This document shows positions 19,692-26,425 of a stretch of 64,000 nucleotides of DNA, in pieces. Within the stretch, counting starts at the first letter, position 1. The number at the start of each line of letters is the position of its first letter. Where the stretch lies: assembly GCA_019244165.1 (NCBI GenBank), contig JAFATA010000030.1:1-64000 (forward strand), read 5' to 3'. The stretch comes from Pseudonocardiales bacterium. Its GTDB lineage: Bacteria > Actinomycetota > Actinomycetes > Mycobacteriales > Pseudonocardiaceae. The notes below the pieces were generated by a model. That model was not told the origin of the DNA. It saw only the letters and a list, made by a program, of their open reading frames with translations, and ran no database searches. The translations under genes and the position numbers were made by a program.

Positions 19692-20935
19692 TGACCAGCT
19701 TGCTGCGGCTGACCACCGCAGGTTCGGTCGACGACGGCAAGTCCACGTTGGTCGGGCGGTTGCTGCACGACACCCAGTCGATCATGACTGATCAGCTTGC
19801 CGCGGTGGAACAAGCCACCCGCGCTCGCGGTGGCGACTTACCGGACCTGGCCCTGTTCACCGACGGGCTGCGCGCGGAGCGGGAGCAGGGCATCACCATC
19901 GACGCGGCCTACCGCTACTTCGCCACGCCCACCCGCAAGTTCGTGCTGGCCGACTGCCCGGGGCATGTGCAGTACACCCGCAACACGGTCTGCGGGGCCT
20001 CCACCGCCGAGCTCGCCGTGATCCTGGTCGACGCGCGCCAGGGTCTAGTCGAGCAGACCCGGCGCCACCTCGCCGTCATGGCGTTCCTGCGGGTACCGCA
20101 TCTGGTGCTCGCGGTGAACAAGATGGACCTGGTGAACTTCGACGAGCCGACGTTTCGTCGCATCGAGTCGGAGTTCGCGGCGGCGGCAGGCGCGCTAGGC
20201 GTGCCGGATCTGGTGGCTGTGCCGGTGTCCGCGCTGCACGGCGATAACGTCGCGGTTGCCAGCCGGCGCACCCAGTGGTATCGGGGTCCGACGCTGCTGG
20301 AGCACTTGGAGGCGGTGCCCACCGGGCGGGCGGCGGTGGCCGAGCCGATGCGCTTTCCGGTGCAGCTGGTGCTGCGACCGCGCACCGCCGAGCACCCCGA
20401 CTACCGTGGCCTCGCCGGCCGGGTCGCCTCCGGAGTGCTGGAAGTCGGCCACGAGGTCATCGCCTTGCCTTCCGGGGGCCGTTCCACCGTGGTGGGCATC
20501 GACACCCCCGACGGTCCGATGTCGTGCGCCGCCGCCGGGCAATCGGTCACCGTGCTGCTGAGCGACGAGATCGACGTCGGGCGGGGCGAGGTGCTGGCCC
20601 GCCCGGAGCAGGCACCACGGGTGGTCACCGAGCTCGACGCGGACCTGTGCTGGCTGGCCGACCACCCGCTGCGCGCCGGCGCGCGGGTGCTGGTCAAACA
20701 CGGCACTCGCACCGTCCGGGCGGTCGTCACCGAGCTGACCGGGCGGCTGGACCTGCGCACCCTGCGGCATACCGCGCCACCGGCCGCGCTGGAGCTCAAC
20801 GAGATCGGCGTTGCGCGGATCCGGCTCGCCCAGCCGCTGGCGGTGGACTCCTATGCCACGGACCGCCACACCGGTGGCTTCCTCGTCATCGACGCCGCCG
20901 ACGGCAACACCCTCGCCGCCGGTCTGGTCGGATAA
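19691..20935 (+). CDS. cysN: sulfate adenylyltransferase subunit 1 (CysN), GTPase
   Basis: 414 residues. EF-Tu-like GTPase with P-loop GSVDDGKST at 11-19, DCPGH and NKMD motifs, followed by two beta-barrel domains. GTP hydrolysis drives APS formation by CysD. There is no C-terminal APS kinase (CysC) extension, so PAPS is not made by this protein; assimilation probably goes through an APS reductase encoded elsewhere. ATG at 19691 is fixed by the TGATG overlap with cysD. Last intact gene of the operon. Confidence 0.95.
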   Translation: MTSLLRLTTAGSVDDGKSTLVGRLLHDTQSIMTDQLAAVEQATRARGGDLPDLALFTDGLRAEREQGITIDAAYRYFATPTRKFVLADCPGHVQYTRNTVCGASTAELAVILVDARQGLVEQTRRHLAVMAFLRVPHLVLAVNKMDLVNFDEPTFRRIESEFAAAAGALGVPDLVAVPVSALHGDNVAVASRRTQWYRGPTLLEHLEAVPTGRAAVAEPMRFPVQLVLRPRTAEHPDYRGLAGRVASGVLEVGHEVIALPSGGRSTVVGIDTPDGPMSCAAAGQSVTVLLSDEIDVGRGEVLARPEQAPRVVTELDADLCWLADHPLRAGARVLVKHGTRTVRAVVTELTGRLDLRTLRHTAPPAALELNEIGVARIRLAQPLAVDSYATDRHTGGFLVIDAADGNTLAAGLVG

Positions 20936-20987
20936 GCCACTCCGTCAGCAGCCTTGTGTCGTCGCTAGGCCCAATAGGCTGGGCTCG

Positions 20988-21778
20988 GTGAAACGGTGGT
21001 CGGGCAGCTGGCGCCACGCCGGTGCTCGCCTCGCCCGGGCGCCCTCGGTCCGGCTACCGGGCGATGCGTGGCGCCGCAGCTATGACTGGTTGCGCGGATC
21101 GGCCCCGGGTCTGGTGCCGTTGGCGCTGCTGGTCGGGGCTGGCGCGGGTGCCGGTGCGGTGGTGTTCCGGTACCTGATCCTTGGCTTCACCGAAGCGTTC
21201 ACTGGGCAGGCGGACTACAGCGCCGCAGGCCGCGTCGCCAGCCCGCATTTTCCTGGCTTGGGCATATTTTTCGTAATCCTGGTCCCCGCGCTCGGGGGCT
21301 GGTGTATGGGCCGATCGTGGACCGGTACGCGAAGGAGGCCCGTGGGCACGGGGTGCCGGAGGTGATGCTGGCCATCGCGGAGCGGGGCGGGCGGATCGGT
21401 CCGCAGGTGGCGGTCGTGAAGTCGTTGGCGTCGGCGTTGTGTATCGGCTCAGGTGGATCCGTCGGTCGGGAAGGACCGATCGTGCAGATCGGCTCGGCGC
21501 TGGGGTCGAGCATCGGGCAGGCGCTGCGGATCTCCGATACCCGGCTCCGGTTGCTGGTTGCCTGCGGCGCGGCCGGCGGCATCTCGGCCACGTTCAACGC
21601 CCCCCTTGCGGGGGTGTTCTTCGCTCTTGAGCTGATCCTGCGGGACTTCGCCACCGAGTCGTTCGGGGTGGTGGTCCTCGCGTCGGTCACCGCCGACGTG
21701 ATCGGGCGAGCGGCCTTGACTTCATCGAAGGGCCGGCGCTGGGTGTGGGCTCGTATACCAGTGGCAGCCGGGGACTGA
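20988..21778 (+). pseudogene. ClC-family chloride channel/transporter, frameshifted and truncated
   Basis: The frame from GTG at 20988 encodes an N-terminal region with a first membrane helix (LVPLALLVGAGAGAGAVVF) and reaches LVPALGG. It then loses frame in a run of five G (21294-21298); one more G would continue as LVYGPIVDRYAKEARGHGVPEV. The second frame holds ClC signatures: GSGGSVGREGPIVQIG (selectivity filter region) and GGISATFNAPLAGVFFALE. It stops at 21778 after about 160 residues, far short of a full ClC of 400 or more residues, with an unrelated tail. The two lesions together make a functional channel unlikely, although the G run could be an error or phase variation. Confidence 0.8.
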
Positions 21779-21782
21779 AAGA

Positions 21783-21845
21783 GTGAACGAGTCCGGCAGC
21801 GGTAAACACCGGAAAGAAGACAGAGGCGATAAGAACGACCAGTGA
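21783..21845 (+). other. 20-codon mini-ORF overlapping the methyltransferase start
   Basis: GTG at 21783 opens a very hydrophilic reading frame (KHRKEDRGDKNDQ at its end) whose TGA overlaps the GTG start of the next gene. The frame is open upstream to about 21720. It could be a coupling ORF or the tail of a lost gene such as a RiPP precursor. Not recognisable. Confidence 0.2.
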
Positions 21846-23020
21846 CCGTCATCGATGCGAATTCTTCCTGGGTCGCTTTGGTCGTGGAGGTGCCGCGCGC
21901 AGCGTTCATTCCCGACACCATCTGGCTAGACGATAGCTGTGGTGACGCGCTCGTGGCGTTGTCCAAGCACACTGACCCGGATGGCTGGCACGCTGTGGTG
22001 TCTGCGGATGCGCCCGTCATCACGCAGGTCAATCTCGGTGACGTGCAGCCTGGCCAAAGGGGTAGCTTTGCGTCCAGCTCGGCTAGCCAGCCGAGCATCG
22101 TTGCGGAGATGCTGAACGCCCTGGACGCCCGTCCCAGGCAGTCCGTGCTGGAAATCGGTACCGGGACCGGGTGGAACGCCGCGCTGCTCTCACGCTGTGT
22201 CGGCGAGCACGGCCGGGTGGTCACCATCGAAGTGGATCCACGCCTGGCGCAGCACGCCCGACGCGCGCTCGCTCACGCCGGATACGACCCGCTGGTGATC
22301 ACCGGAGACGGCCTGGTCGGGTACTCGGCGGGGGCTCCGTACGACCGGGTGATCTCCACTGCATCCATCCGCGAGGTCGTGCCCCGCGCCTGGCTCGACC
22401 AGCTCCGGCCCACAGGACGGCTGGTGACGCCGTGGGGTACGGATTGGTCCAACGGGGTCCTGCTGACCCTCACCTTGGCCGAGGGCGGTGTGGCCACCGG
22501 CAGGTTCTCTGGCGATGTGGCCTTTATGCGTCTGCGCAGCCAGCGCCGCGCCCGGTATGGCTGGCGGCCCAGTGACCGTGACATCGAGCGCGCCCAGATC
22601 ACCGCCACCGCCTGCCGCGGGAGCGATCTGGACCGAATGCTGAACCCGGAGAAAGGCACGTTCGCCATCGGTGCGCGGCTGGCGTCCTGCTGCCTGGTGG
22701 TCGAGCGGGACGCCCGCGGCACACTCCACCACACCCTGGAGCTGGACGACGGAGCAACCAGGTCGTGGGCGCAACTGGACGCCAACCTCAACGACCCGGC
22801 CCCGTTCATGGTGCGCCAATTAGGGCCGCGCAAGCTGTGGGACGAGGTCGAGGCCGCCTACGACTGGTGGCACGACCAAGGCGAACCGCGCCTCGATCGG
22901 TTCGGTTTGCACAGCTGGGAGGGGCAGCAGTGGATCTGGCTCGACGAACCCGACAACACCGTCCGGGTCGTGGAACCATCAGACGCGGGTCGTGGCGACC
23001 TGCCGGGCCTTGCGGGCTAG
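21842..23020 (+). CDS. protein-L-isoaspartate O-methyltransferase-like enzyme of RiPP type
   Basis: 392 residues. PIMT core: VPRAAFIPD, ASSSASQPSIVAEML, VLEIGTGTGWNAALL and APYDRVISTAS. The long C-terminal extension ending LWDEVEAAYDWWHDQGEP...DRFG is typical of PIMT homologues in RiPP clusters (FxLD lanthipeptide, ATP-grasp graspetide and aspartimide-forming systems), where they methylate a precursor-peptide Asp to give aspartimide. No precursor, ATP-grasp or lanthionine enzyme is seen nearby, so it looks like an orphan or remnant of such a cluster. GTG at 21842. It converges on and overlaps the XRE-TPR gene by 42 bases. A truncated paralogue lies at 60134-60784. Confidence 0.8.
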   Translation: MTVIDANSSWVALVVEVPRAAFIPDTIWLDDSCGDALVALSKHTDPDGWHAVVSADAPVITQVNLGDVQPGQRGSFASSSASQPSIVAEMLNALDARPRQSVLEIGTGTGWNAALLSRCVGEHGRVVTIEVDPRLAQHARRALAHAGYDPLVITGDGLVGYSAGAPYDRVISTASIREVVPRAWLDQLRPTGRLVTPWGTDWSNGVLLTLTLAEGGVATGRFSGDVAFMRLRSQRRARYGWRPSDRDIERAQITATACRGSDLDRMLNPEKGTFAIGARLASCCLVVERDARGTLHHTLELDDGATRSWAQLDANLNDPAPFMVRQLGPRKLWDEVEAAYDWWHDQGEPRLDRFGLHSWEGQQWIWLDEPDNTVRVVEPSDAGRGDLPGLAG

Positions 23021-24307
23021 GTCACGGGCGTCGGTGCCCGGGCGGGCTGCCAGCGCAGCGGCCAGGGGCACCAGTCGCTCCCGGCGGAGGGCGGCGGAGC
23101 GCAGGGTGCTGACCACCTCGATGGCCTGGTGAGCCAAACTCAGCCCCTGGGGTTCCCCGGCCCGCACGTGCACCTCAGCGAGCAGCAGCTCGGCGACGGT
23201 GCGGCCCGGGCGGTAGTGGCCCTCGCGGTAGCCGCGGACCGCGTTGGCGGCGGAGCGCTCGGCGGCCTCCAGCTGGCCCAGATTCAGCTGAACCCCTGCC
23301 GTGGTCAAATCACCCCCCGCGTGCTCGAAGGCATCGCGCGGCTCCCACCCCTCATTCGCCTCAGCAAGACACCGGGTGGCCTGCTCGGGGGCCTTCATGA
23401 GGGCCCACGCGGTCGCGGAAAGCCGGCTCAGCCGCGCAGCGAGGGTCGGCAGCCGGGGATCATCAGCACGTGGGAGTGCCGAGGCGGGCCTGCCGAGCGG
23501 GAACCCGCCAAGCCGCAGCTGCCCGAACTGAAATAGCTTCAGCGCCTCGTTGGGATGCCCGATCCAGACCAGGGTCAACCCGGCCTGCCAGGTGGCGTTG
23601 GCGACCCCGTAGCTGTCCCCGAACTGATCGGCCAAAGACAGCGCTTCGGTGAAGAAACCGGTCCCGTCCAGCCCATCGTCGTAGCAGTACCACCCCGCCT
23701 CGGTGTACAGCTCGACCAGCGCGGCAGCAAACTGTGCCTTGACCGCCTCGCGCGCGGGCACCTCCAGCCACGGCGTGTACTCCCTGGCCGTGGCACCGAA
23801 CACGCCAGCCTGCCCACCGTAGTGCCGGGCCACCCCGCGCAGCGACTCGGTCAGGGCGCGCAGGACGTGCACATCGGAGATTCCCAGTCGCGAGGGCAGC
23901 ACCTGCCTGCTGGGCAGGGCCAGCTTGACCGTTTTACCCAGACCCACCGCCTGGCCCACGGCTGCCGTCGAGGCGGTCGCGATGAGGGCGCGGCGTTTCA
24001 CGGCCTCGTCCACCTCTTCCTCGGCCGGCGGTGCCTCCGCTGGCTCCTCACCGTAGCTGACGCCCAGCCACGCCCGGGGTACGCCGAGTCCGTCGGCGAT
24101 GCGCTCGATCACCCACACGTTGCTGACCTGACGGCCCCTGACCATGATCTCGCTGACCTCCGACTGGGACTGACCGGTCAGCTGCGCGATGTGGCGCTGG
24201 CTCACCCCCAGGCGCCGCAGGTGGCGGTACACCGTGCCGATGTCCCGGGCGGCCAGCACAGCACGCATCTCGTCGCCCTCGAACAGCGCGCGATCCAGGG
24301 GACCCAC
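22979..24307 (-). CDS. XRE-family regulator with TPR-like sensor domain
   Basis: 442 residues. Helix-turn-helix at about 27-80 (SQRHIAQLTGQSQSEVSEI), a short Ala/Glu-rich linker with a hydrophobic patch, then helical repeats (about 170-440) of the TPR kind. This architecture is common among actinobacterial regulators that bind small signals or peptides, and one often accompanies RiPP-type methyltransferase genes. The convergent overlap with the PIMT-like gene suggests they travel together. ATG at 24307. Target and signal unknown. Confidence 0.8.
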   Translation of the reverse strand: MGPLDRALFEGDEMRAVLAARDIGTVYRHLRRLGVSQRHIAQLTGQSQSEVSEIMVRGRQVSNVWVIERIADGLGVPRAWLGVSYGEEPAEAPPAEEEVDEAVKRRALIATASTAAVGQAVGLGKTVKLALPSRQVLPSRLGISDVHVLRALTESLRGVARHYGGQAGVFGATAREYTPWLEVPAREAVKAQFAAALVELYTEAGWYCYDDGLDGTGFFTEALSLADQFGDSYGVANATWQAGLTLVWIGHPNEALKLFQFGQLRLGGFPLGRPASALPRADDPRLPTLAARLSRLSATAWALMKAPEQATRCLAEANEGWEPRDAFEHAGGDLTTAGVQLNLGQLEAAERSAANAVRGYREGHYRPGRTVAELLLAEVHVRAGEPQGLSLAHQAIEVVSTLRSAALRRERLVPLAAALAARPGTDARDLARKARQVATTRV

Positions 24308-24548
24308 CAGTGATCACCTCTCGGTCAACCAGACGGCGGTATCTGCAGCCACCACGTCACTGTGCCGGTAACGATCTCACTTCAAGCAAGTTGCCGAGAA
24401 CCGTGATCTATCAACCGTGCGGCTACTTGCCGCACCACAGCTGGTGCCCACCAACGGGGCGCGGCGGTGCGACGGGTAGCCCCCCGCCGTTAGCGGCGCG
24501 GGCGACGGTCCGCCGGGCCTGGGGCCTGCCAGCGCCATCCGACCAGAC

Positions 24549-24929
24549 GTGATCGACGGCCGGGTTCTCGACGCCTCCGCACTGATCGCGTTCGCGCGCG
24601 GCACCTCACTCTATGCTGCTGCGGCAGTCTGGACGGCGGTTGAGGAGTCGATCGTCCTGATTGTGCCCTCGACTGCGGTAGCGGCAACGTGGACGGAACT
24701 TACCGACGAGCAGCAACCCGTGCTCGACGTCGTGCTGAACCTTCCGGTCACAGTCGTCGACGACCTTGATCAAGCACGTGCTCGCACTGTTGGCCAGCTT
24801 GGCGGTCCCCAGGCCGACGCGCACGCCATCGCCTGCGCTCAGCAACGCAGATGGCCCCTGCTCACTGCCGACCCTGCCCACTACGCCCGCCACGAACAGA
24901 CCGGCGTCGACCTCGAACCCATGACCTAG
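24549..24929 (+). CDS. PIN-domain ribonuclease toxin (VapC-like), no visible antitoxin
   Basis: 126 residues. PIN fold residues: LDASALIAF with the first catalytic Asp, an internal ELT acidic site, DAHAIACA, and a terminal TADP motif. VapC toxins cleave tRNA or rRNA and need a cognate antitoxin. The roughly 240 bases upstream are open in the +1-type frame but do not look like an AbrB, RHH or Phd antitoxin. GTG at 24549. It lies just left of the tRNA-Val element relic, consistent with accessory DNA. Confidence 0.75.
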   Translation: MIDGRVLDASALIAFARGTSLYAAAAVWTAVEESIVLIVPSTAVAATWTELTDEQQPVLDVVLNLPVTVVDDLDQARARTVGQLGGPQADAHAIACAQQRRWPLLTADPAHYARHEQTGVDLEPMT

Positions 24930-24957: not shown

Positions 24958-24988
24958 GTGGGCGCAGCAGGAGTCGAACCTGCAACCT
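24958..24988 (-). repeat. duplicated tRNA-Val 3' end, putative distal attachment site
   Basis: Matches 26353-26383 with two differences (A for G at two sites). It retains the T-arm and acceptor 3' strand but no usable D-arm or anticodon arm, so it is not a second tRNA gene. Directly repeated with the intact copy, as attL/attR should be. Confidence 0.7.
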
Positions 24989-25126
24989 GCCCAGCGGCGA
25001 GCGTGATCGTTAGAGGTGACCACCGCACCAACGCCCGGCCGACAGCCGGGCTCAGCCCATGCCTTTCTTTCTCGTGTCACGCGCGAGCCGCCCGGCGCGC
25101 TCGAAACCGCAGGGAAAATCCTCACA

Positions 25127-25612
25127 CTAACCTTGTTGAAGCTCGGAAGCCACCGACTCGATCCTGACAAATGGTATCTTCGCTATATAGTTCCGATATA
25201 GTTCGGCAGCATTTCGGACTGGCAAGTGCTGAAGCTCCAGAAGAGTTTGCAGCCCTTCCAGCTCTGTATCACAAGCCTCTGCCGCGCGAAGCTGCGCCGC
25301 CATATCTTGCGATTTTCCTAGTTGCACAGAAATGGTCGCTACAAGCGACACAAGCATGGCGACGAGACAGAGGACTCGCCACACAGTAGAAGAACTCGAT
25401 AACGAGAGTGCGTGTTGGACTGCTCCAGCAAACGATAGTCCTCCGAACGCGGGGCCGGCGGTAAGAACCGCCGCAATAGCACTACCGATTATGCTAGTAT
25501 TCGCCAATCGAACGCTACGCGGCCGGACTCGTCGTATGAAATTTCCTATGTTCACCCGTTGCACTTCAATCCGCCGCAGTAGTTCCTGTCGGTTTTTACC
25601 ATTCTCGTCCAT
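25127..25612 (-). CDS. small membrane protein of unknown function in the element relic
   Basis: 161 residues from ATG at 25612, chosen because GAGGGG lies six bases upstream; an ATG at 25636 has no RBS. A basic N-terminus, then two hydrophobic segments (IIGSAIAAVLTAGPAFGG and VLCLVAMLVSLVATISV) and a C-terminal helical, probably cytoplasmic domain. The layout recalls SLATT-type two-helix proteins of conflict systems, but that is only a resemblance. Its base composition is visibly less GC-rich than the chromosome, in line with imported DNA. Confidence 0.6.
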   Translation of the reverse strand: MDENGKNRQELLRRIEVQRVNIGNFIRRVRPRSVRLANTSIIGSAIAAVLTAGPAFGGLSFAGAVQHALSLSSSSTVWRVLCLVAMLVSLVATISVQLGKSQDMAAQLRAAEACDTELEGLQTLLELQHLPVRNAAELYRNYIAKIPFVRIESVASELQQG

Positions 25613-25686
25613 ATTGTTCCCCTCGGGGTCTTCCATGTGAGAATTTTTTAGGGCGTGGGGTTACTGATCGTGTACCGACACGCGCG

Positions 25687-26013
25687 TCACCTTTCTCTGA
25701 GTTCAACACTTTCAGAGTAATCGAGCACGAGTCCGTTTTCGTCGGACCACCAGTGTCGTTCGATGAGTACTGGGTCACCGACACCGATATTGAGGGCTGT
25801 CGCTTGGTCGGAGGTGGGTGCGGGCTGGGCGACCACGGTGCCCGCACCGGAGGTTGACTGTACGAGACCCTCAGCTTGGAGGACTTTGAGTGCCATGGCG
25901 CGGACAGATGGTAGGAGCTGGCTAGGCCGGCGGTCGCCGCGCTCGATGCGTTGGCGGTAGTGCCGCGCGACCTGGAGGTAAGGCGGCTCCTCACGGTTGA
26001 TCATGTTAGCCAT
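25687..26013 (-). pseudogene. GntR-family regulator with deleted recognition helix and truncated C-terminus
   Basis: 108 residues. The start YLQVARHYRQRIERGD and LPSVRAMA are the GntR winged-helix opening, but the sequence jumps directly to LKVLQAEGLVQSTSGAGTVV. The roughly 15 residues that normally form the recognition helix are missing in frame. The UTRA-like ligand domain begins (GVGDPVLIERHWW) but ends after about 30 residues. In intact elements this KorSA-type protein represses transfer genes. DNA binding by this version is unlikely. Confidence 0.7.
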
Positions 26014-26051
26014 GTGATCCGGTCCCGGCGTGGTGTGAGCGTAACTAGTTT

Positions 26052-26078
26052 ATCTTAGGAGGAATTATCCTAGGAGGA
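26052..26078. promoter_or_regulatory. 12-bp direct repeats between GntR and the divergent AICE gene
   Basis: ATCTTAGGAGGA (26052-26063) and ATCCTAGGAGGA (26067-26078) repeat with a 15-base period in the divergent spacer. The position fits a GntR operator; the second copy also serves as the ribosome binding site for the ORF at 26086. Confidence 0.5.
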
Positions 26079-26085
26079 GTGGATC

Positions 26086-26196
26086 ATGAGGTTGATGGTG
26101 GATGTGTCTGAGGTTCAGTTCACGGTGGGTCGGCCGTGTGCGCCGAAGACGGATCAGGCTGGTGCTCAGCGGACGAAGAAGGGACCTGCACCTTGA
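26086..26196 (+). pseudogene. N-terminal fragment of a conserved AICE protein (VDVSEVQFTV family)
   Basis: 36 codons with an excellent RBS. The opening MRLMVDVSEVQFTVGRP and APKTDQAGAQ match the first residues of a protein family carried beside GntR regulators in actinobacterial integrative elements. After about 30 residues the similarity stops and the frame ends, where a deletion has joined it to the integrase remnant. The family function is not firmly known to me. Confidence 0.6.
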
Positions 26197-26197
26197 C

Positions 26198-26278
26198 GGA
26201 GTCCGTACTCGCGCTGGCTACCCCCACGTACGGTTGCATGATTTTCGTCACATTGTAGTCAGCTTGCTCTTTAGCTGA
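26198..26278 (+). pseudogene. tyrosine integrase remnant (box II)
   Basis: The frame reads RTRAGYPHVRLHDFRHIVVSLLFS and stops. HDFRH is the HxxR catalytic box of tyrosine recombinases, preceded by the usual AGxPxVRLHD lead-in. The catalytic Tyr and the whole N-terminal part are missing. Its place, reading toward the tRNA-Val 3' end, is where AICE integrase genes sit. Confidence 0.7.
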
Positions 26279-26350
26279 AGACTCCCCAGTCGTTACCGCA
26301 CTGTTGCTACATTTGGCCTACTTACCGATCTTGCACAAGGTAGTCCTACC

Positions 26351-26425
26351 TGGTGGGCGCAGCAGGGGTCGAACCTGCGACCTCTCGCTTGTAAGGCGAG
26401 CGCTCTTCCGCTGAGCTATGCGCCC
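26351..26425 (-). tRNA. tRNA-Val (UAC)
   Basis: Canonical cloverleaf: acceptor GGGCGCA/TGCGCCC, D-stem GCTC/GAGC, anticodon stem CTCGC/GCGAG with loop CTTACAA (anticodon TAC), T-arm GCAGG-TTCGACC-CCTGC. The terminal CCA is encoded (26351-26353). A short palindrome (26338-26351) directly 3' may help termination. Its 3' end is duplicated at 24958. Confidence 0.96.

Follow-up and report, generated by a model that had tools for sequence, protein, structure and literature searches.

A 1.4-kb stretch beside a tRNA-Val gene of a Pseudonocardiales bacterium is very probably the remnant of one pSAM2-type AICE that collapsed by at least four deletions. It lies in the window, the 64,000-nucleotide stretch of DNA analyzed here (positions 1 to 64,000 of contig JAFATA010000030.1). 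The initial annotation had read this locus as a full element reduced to ~1.4 kb by internal deletion, with its ends and one membrane gene kept, and the homologies, the order of the pieces and the deletions support that view. From the repeat, the tRNA, the homologies, the order and orientation of the pieces and the deletions measured against intact homologues, we infer both the history of the element and its loss of function. The features are as follows.

24958..24988 (+): distal direct-repeat copy, the displaced tRNA-Val 3' end, 29/31 identical
24986..25103 (-): left end of the element; its 31-mer at 25073-25103 and 17-mer GCTCGCCGCTGGGCAGG at 24986-25002 recur on contig C34 of this genome
25127..25636 (-): cargo gene for a 169-aa membrane protein with two hydrophobic stretches, apparently complete
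25687..26013 (-): GntR (HutC/KorSA-type) pseudogene with partial Pfam GntR and UTRA matches
26014..26085 (no strand): divergent kor/pra-type intergenic region, with two copies of a 15-bp tandem, TTATC(T/C)TAGGAGGAA, at 26050-26078
26086..26196 (+): Pra/SCO3933-type activator, N-terminal fragment with ~30 codons and then a deletion junction; contains VDVSEVQFTV
26192..26290 (+): tyrosine-integrase C-terminal stub (HLDGVRTRAGYPHVRLHDFRHIVVSLLF), from tblastn to L080, L043, L076 and L077, a genome search and alignment to related genes
26304..26352 (+): attP arm remaining between integrase and tRNA, from one TTGCTACAT repeat and DNA likeness to G010
26353..26383 (+): tRNA-proximal 31-bp direct repeat, the att site within the tRNA-Val gene
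26351..26425 (-): tRNA-Val (anticodon TAC), the integration target, 3' end at 26351 (ARAGORN)

The two repeat copies are spaced 1395 bases apart in identical orientation and bracket positions 24958-26383, so that the locus carries direct repeats at both ends and integration at a tRNA 3' end, as expected of an AICE. The 31-base repeat of the tRNA-Val 3' end (29 identical) had been claimed beforehand and was confirmed here: dinucleotide-preserving shuffles of the whole window gave 0 matches with up to 3 mismatches, and a third copy was absent even when up to 8 substitutions were allowed. The G+C content is 0.52-0.61 between the repeats against 0.65-0.71 outside; it recovers at the tRNA, and the drop is confined to the inter-repeat DNA. 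Taken together, the repeat, the shuffle result and the drop in G+C therefore mark the bracketed DNA as foreign-looking and bounded by att-like ends. The ORFs located inside it were the four announced by the earlier reading, namely an integrase stub, the VDVSEVQFTV fragment, a GntR regulator and a membrane protein. From the tRNA inward, the order is attP arm, integrase C-terminal piece, pra-type start, divergent GntR gene and membrane gene.

Remains of the integrase, activator and repressor genes

The stub HLDGVRTRAGYPHVRLHDFRHIVVSLLF matches tyrosine integrases from the same genus. It encodes HDFRH at 26237-26251 (+), and its ORF stops ~75 bases short of the tRNA-side repeat. Nothing is left upstream of the H-x-x-R box. 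The stub has neither the catalytic Arg-I nor the later His nor the Tyr, and relative to the related gene in G004 it is short of ~130 bases, the Tyr codon among them. The search against AICE integrases proposed as a check in the initial annotation returned relatives: by tblastn, the stub is 90% identical over 21 residues to L080, an integrase encoded at one end of G001 contig C234, and 61% identical over 33 residues (E ~1e-8) to the integrase L043 of G010, the closest relative, which is found at the same tRNA-Val in an orientation identical to that of the stub. On contig C234, the integrase sharing the RTRAGYPHVRLHDFRH stretch adjoins an excisionase-like gene, RepSA and a pra-like gene in an AICE-type cluster. 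Integrases of this family also face tRNA 3' ends in G005, G003 and G001 (tRNA-Ser) and in G004 (tRNA-Pro). The tyrosine integrase of an AICE beside the tRNA-side att is thus represented in the window by a homologous stub with its catalytic residues missing. The bases from stub to tRNA are 80% identical to those of G010 over 87 columns, the tRNA end included, and six junctions of related integrases with their tRNAs each hold one or two TTGCTACAT copies; those tRNAs, as far as known, are tRNA-Val, tRNA-Ser and tRNA-Pro.

Upstream of the stub, ORF 26086-26196 is 59% identical (E 7e-7) to the gene that opens a complete element in G070 and 55% identical to its counterpart in a complete element of G022. 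Both elements carry RepSA, FtsK, Xis and Int, which bears out the earlier assignment of VDVSEVQFTV as AICE-type; complete AICEs of this make-up, ending at a tRNA, occur in the family. The G022 homologue (L083) matches NCBIfam NF051478, the SCO3933 family, with an E value of 4.5e-21 and 75 bits, slightly below the curated threshold of 80 bits. In G022, the order is pra-type gene, FtsK/SpoIIIE, RepSA, an HTH_17 excisionase-like protein and a phage integrase ending beside tRNA-Thr; the G070 element has the same order and ends at tRNA-Lys. Compared with this order, the pra-type fragment of the window joins the integrase stub directly, and everything between them is therefore missing. No ORF for a replication initiator (RepSA or other) is present between the repeats, where the intact relatives L063, L080 and L083 have one, nor any for an FtsK/TraB-type translocase, present in L083.

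The divergent GntR gene is also broken. Measured against an intact 248-aa protein of the same genome (L136:240-986, at the start of contig C18), it lacks 13 helix-turn-helix codons and 115 UTRA codons, the latter being most of the ligand domain; both losses are in frame, and the protein stops ~13 residues early. Its earlier naming as a GntR regulator therefore stands as to identity, given the partial GntR and UTRA matches, but not as to an intact gene, given the two internal deletions and the early stop. KorSA/Pra-type regulators, another mark of AICE origin, are thus present as GntR/UTRA fragments and as SCO3933-family homology via L083, both broken. The GntR protein SCO3932 and SCO3933 of Streptomyces coelicolor, homologues of the pSAM2 proteins KorSA and Pra, are encoded divergently from one promoter region (PMC8584621). 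On C18, the displaced 3' half of a tRNA-Gly(TCC) is found ~0.5 kb beyond the GntR gene, with the tRNA gene itself on C34. This layout places the same regulator type immediately next to another element's distal att, on its inner side, as in the window.

The tandem TTATC(T/C) repeat in the intergenic region shared by the GntR and pra-type genes is operator-like. It was considered as an SCO3932 operator and rejected, being unlike the published motif and shared by none of G022, G070 and G001.

Judged by the intact gene order, one large deletion would have joined the beginning of the pra-type gene to the 3' portion of int, removing the translocase, replication and excision genes. A second took the ~130 bp at the int end, and two further deletions 39 and 345 bp of the kor-type GntR gene. 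With a repressor that lacks part of its DNA-binding domain and an activator reduced to a stub, the control switch is presumably dead. The remnant would by itself be unable to integrate, excise, replicate or transfer.

The tRNA-Val site in relatives and the distal att

The same tRNA-Val is followed in G006 and G007 by the usual chromosomal genes, with one repeat copy in the stretches fetched. In G001, a ~20.7 kb integrase-bearing block lies between two copies, the second of 46 bases, and beyond this distal copy stand the same genes that follow the single-copy tRNA-Val of G006 and G007. The comparison of this locus suggested by the initial annotation thus gave one copy without an element and two with it; uninserted relatives keeping both repeats, which would have spoken against the insertion, did not turn up, as G006 and G007 are single-copy. 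The site is occupied in G001, G003 and G010. G010 has the integrase type of the stub, G003 a second type and G001 a third, fused to a GntR domain, and tRNA-Val(TAC) is an integration hotspot in the genus with at least three integrase types. The same collapsed insertion at tRNA-Val was not found in the set of congeners searched, nor, among relatives, an empty site with the exact left flank of the window.

Several side observations were made at this hotspot. The integrase of G001 at the same tRNA-Val (L035:2663-4504) is a 613-aa tyrosine integrase with a C-terminal GntR DNA-binding domain, and a sequence resembling this fusion lies beside tRNA-Val in G004. The G003 element carries as cargo a 1072-aa nSTAND1 NTPase with WD40 repeats (L039:10728-13946), possibly a defence protein. 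On contig C101 of G002, an apparent integrase end fragment precedes a 46-base copy of the tRNA-Val 3' end (L038:8403-8448), after which comes non-tRNA DNA, an attP-like arrangement.

The distal repeat of the window spans 31 bp and has 2 mismatches. The distal copies of G001, G002 and G003 are 45-46 bp long and reach the anticodon loop, with 14-15 anticodon-side bp that the window copy is without. As the distal att is shorter than in other elements at the site, excision is doubtful. The 17-mer GCTCGCCGCTGGGCAGG overlaps the last three bases of the distal repeat and occurs on C34 without a tRNA-Val end; the C34 counterpart (L084:18248-18325) matches the 31-mer at 30/31 and the 17-mer at 17/17 positions. 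The distal att was probably trimmed by one more deletion, at a shared AGGT. A degenerate second tRNA at 24958-25037 was also considered, as the adjoining 17 bases are similar to a tRNA anticodon stem, but since they recur on C34 outside any such tRNA, they are better read as element sequence. The counterpart on C34 lies near tRNA-Gly and another integrase end fragment, and may be where another decayed element ends.

Known elements and competing readings

The remnant shares with pSAM2-type AICEs, which carry RepSA, an FtsK/TraSA-like translocase, Xis, a tyrosine Int and KorSA/Pra, the tRNA 3' end as target, an int 3' end facing the tRNA, and a kor-type GntR gene divergent from a pra-type gene, as in SCO3932/SCO3933. 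It differs in being without rep, translocase and xis and in having a stub for int, and it is not a functional AICE. Because rep and translocase are absent, it is an AICE derivative but no longer an AICE. A similar kor-pra pair is left from a pSAM2-like element in the S. coelicolor AICE remnant SCO3932-SCO3937 (PMC8584621), although that remnant retains tra, rep and a serine integrase, all gone or broken in the window. Closer in anatomy are the decayed AICEs of Streptomyces, in which cargo remains and truncated integrases lie between direct repeats (PMC9513070, fig. 4). The remnant has the direct repeats, the truncated int and the leftover cargo in common with these; it differs in belonging to another actinobacterial genus, in its tRNA-Val site and in kor/pra fossils that are still readable. 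The decay process is thus already known, and the locus in the window is a clear, well-preserved example. It shows unusually clearly what an AICE loses (the genes for replication, transfer and excision, together with the catalytic int end and the control switch) and what survives, namely the ends and a cargo gene. Although the locus adds no new biology of its own, it can usefully serve for training in the detection of collapsed elements that gene-based detectors miss.

In anatomy, the remnant also fits a CIME, a cis-mobilizable element (PMC5704250): integration and transfer genes are lost and two att-like ends kept, with the distal one shortened. The integrase of another AICE might recombine the att copies, so that the 1.4-kb unit excises or travels in tandem; both repeats and the attP arm remain, long open frames of the stub's integrase family are present in congeners, and cis mobilization of decayed elements is documented generally (PMC5704250; PMC9513070). 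Against this, the distal copy is shortened on its anticodon side and has 2 mismatches, neither an excised nor a tandem form can be seen, and no intact integrase of the stub's subfamily was found in the genome itself, the best other matches being ~40% identical. Mobility of this kind is unlikely, and both mobilization in cis and excision in trans would be doubtful with the shortened distal site.

The membrane-protein gene looks to be the sole gene of the remnant that is still whole. The two hydrophobic stretches of its product point to the inner membrane, and cargo is the best reading of the gene. Homologues 41-56% identical and aligned over nearly the full length occur in 7 of the 249 other genomes of the order that were searched. 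The neighbors of these homologues vary between genomes, no Pfam, NCBIfam or PADLOC family scored above chance and no plasmid carrying the gene was found; with nothing above chance and inconsistent neighbors, an assignment of function from family matches was rejected.

If this protein and the shortened GntR were kept by selection for a host function, the locus would be a domesticated remnant rather than a decaying one. The full-length state of the membrane gene and the presence of its family at ordinary chromosomal places in other genera are compatible with such a role. The frame kept in both GntR deletions could suggest retained expression, which counts against the collapse reading, but two deletions in frame are expected by chance in ~1 of 9 cases. 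Moreover, the GntR protein is short of 13 helix-turn-helix codons and most of its ligand domain, the membrane gene is itself apparently frameshifted in its nearest copy (in an Actinobacteria MAG, 62-77% identical and ~1 kb from an integrase end fragment), and the unit is absent at tRNA-Val of the congeners searched. We regard domestication as quite improbable.

Accretion, in which pieces of at least two elements that used tRNA-Val in turn make up a composite, deserves equally little credence. The hotspot with its at least three integrase types would allow it, and an XRE-type island like that of the window also adjoins the distal repeat in G003. However, the order and orientation of the pieces equal those of one standard AICE, the G+C is low throughout and no third copy of the repeat is present. 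It is very improbable, too, that the 1.4-kb unit is a miniature AICE parasite and not a fossil, a minimal element mobilized in trans or cis by AICE integrases and spreading the two-helix membrane protein.

The left flank

To the left of the distal repeat, the genes are a PIN-domain gene, an XRE gene and then cysN/cysD as read from the sequence, unlike the usual flank of tRNA-Val. The genes of the usual flank lie on contigs C44 and C21 of the same genome, which therefore indicates a rearrangement, an accretion or an assembly join somewhere left of the element. That the element itself is an assembly artefact of a fragmented, possibly metagenome-derived genome (85 contigs, 88% complete, and with this unusual flank) is most improbable, as three of its four genes are broken inside their own coding sequence, the base composition shifts at the repeats and the odd join is several kb to the left, outside the element. 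The collapse of one AICE remains the preferred reading. The XRE gene and the other left-side genes were also considered as proof of an orthologous empty site and set aside, since they belong to high-copy families and a match in G003 proves little.

Further observations concern the flanking genes themselves. Positions 20935-24307 of the window run into genes reading as cysN/cysD/nirA, and a rearrangement or assembly join may lie near 21-22 kb. The XRE-type regulator at 22979-24307 has many related copies in the same genome, G003 and G006. The PIN-domain gene at 24549-24929, for which no antitoxin was identified, is directly outside the distal repeat, and DNA blocks 77-90% identical, with nearly the same limits as 24475-24929, occur elsewhere in G003, G006 and G001.
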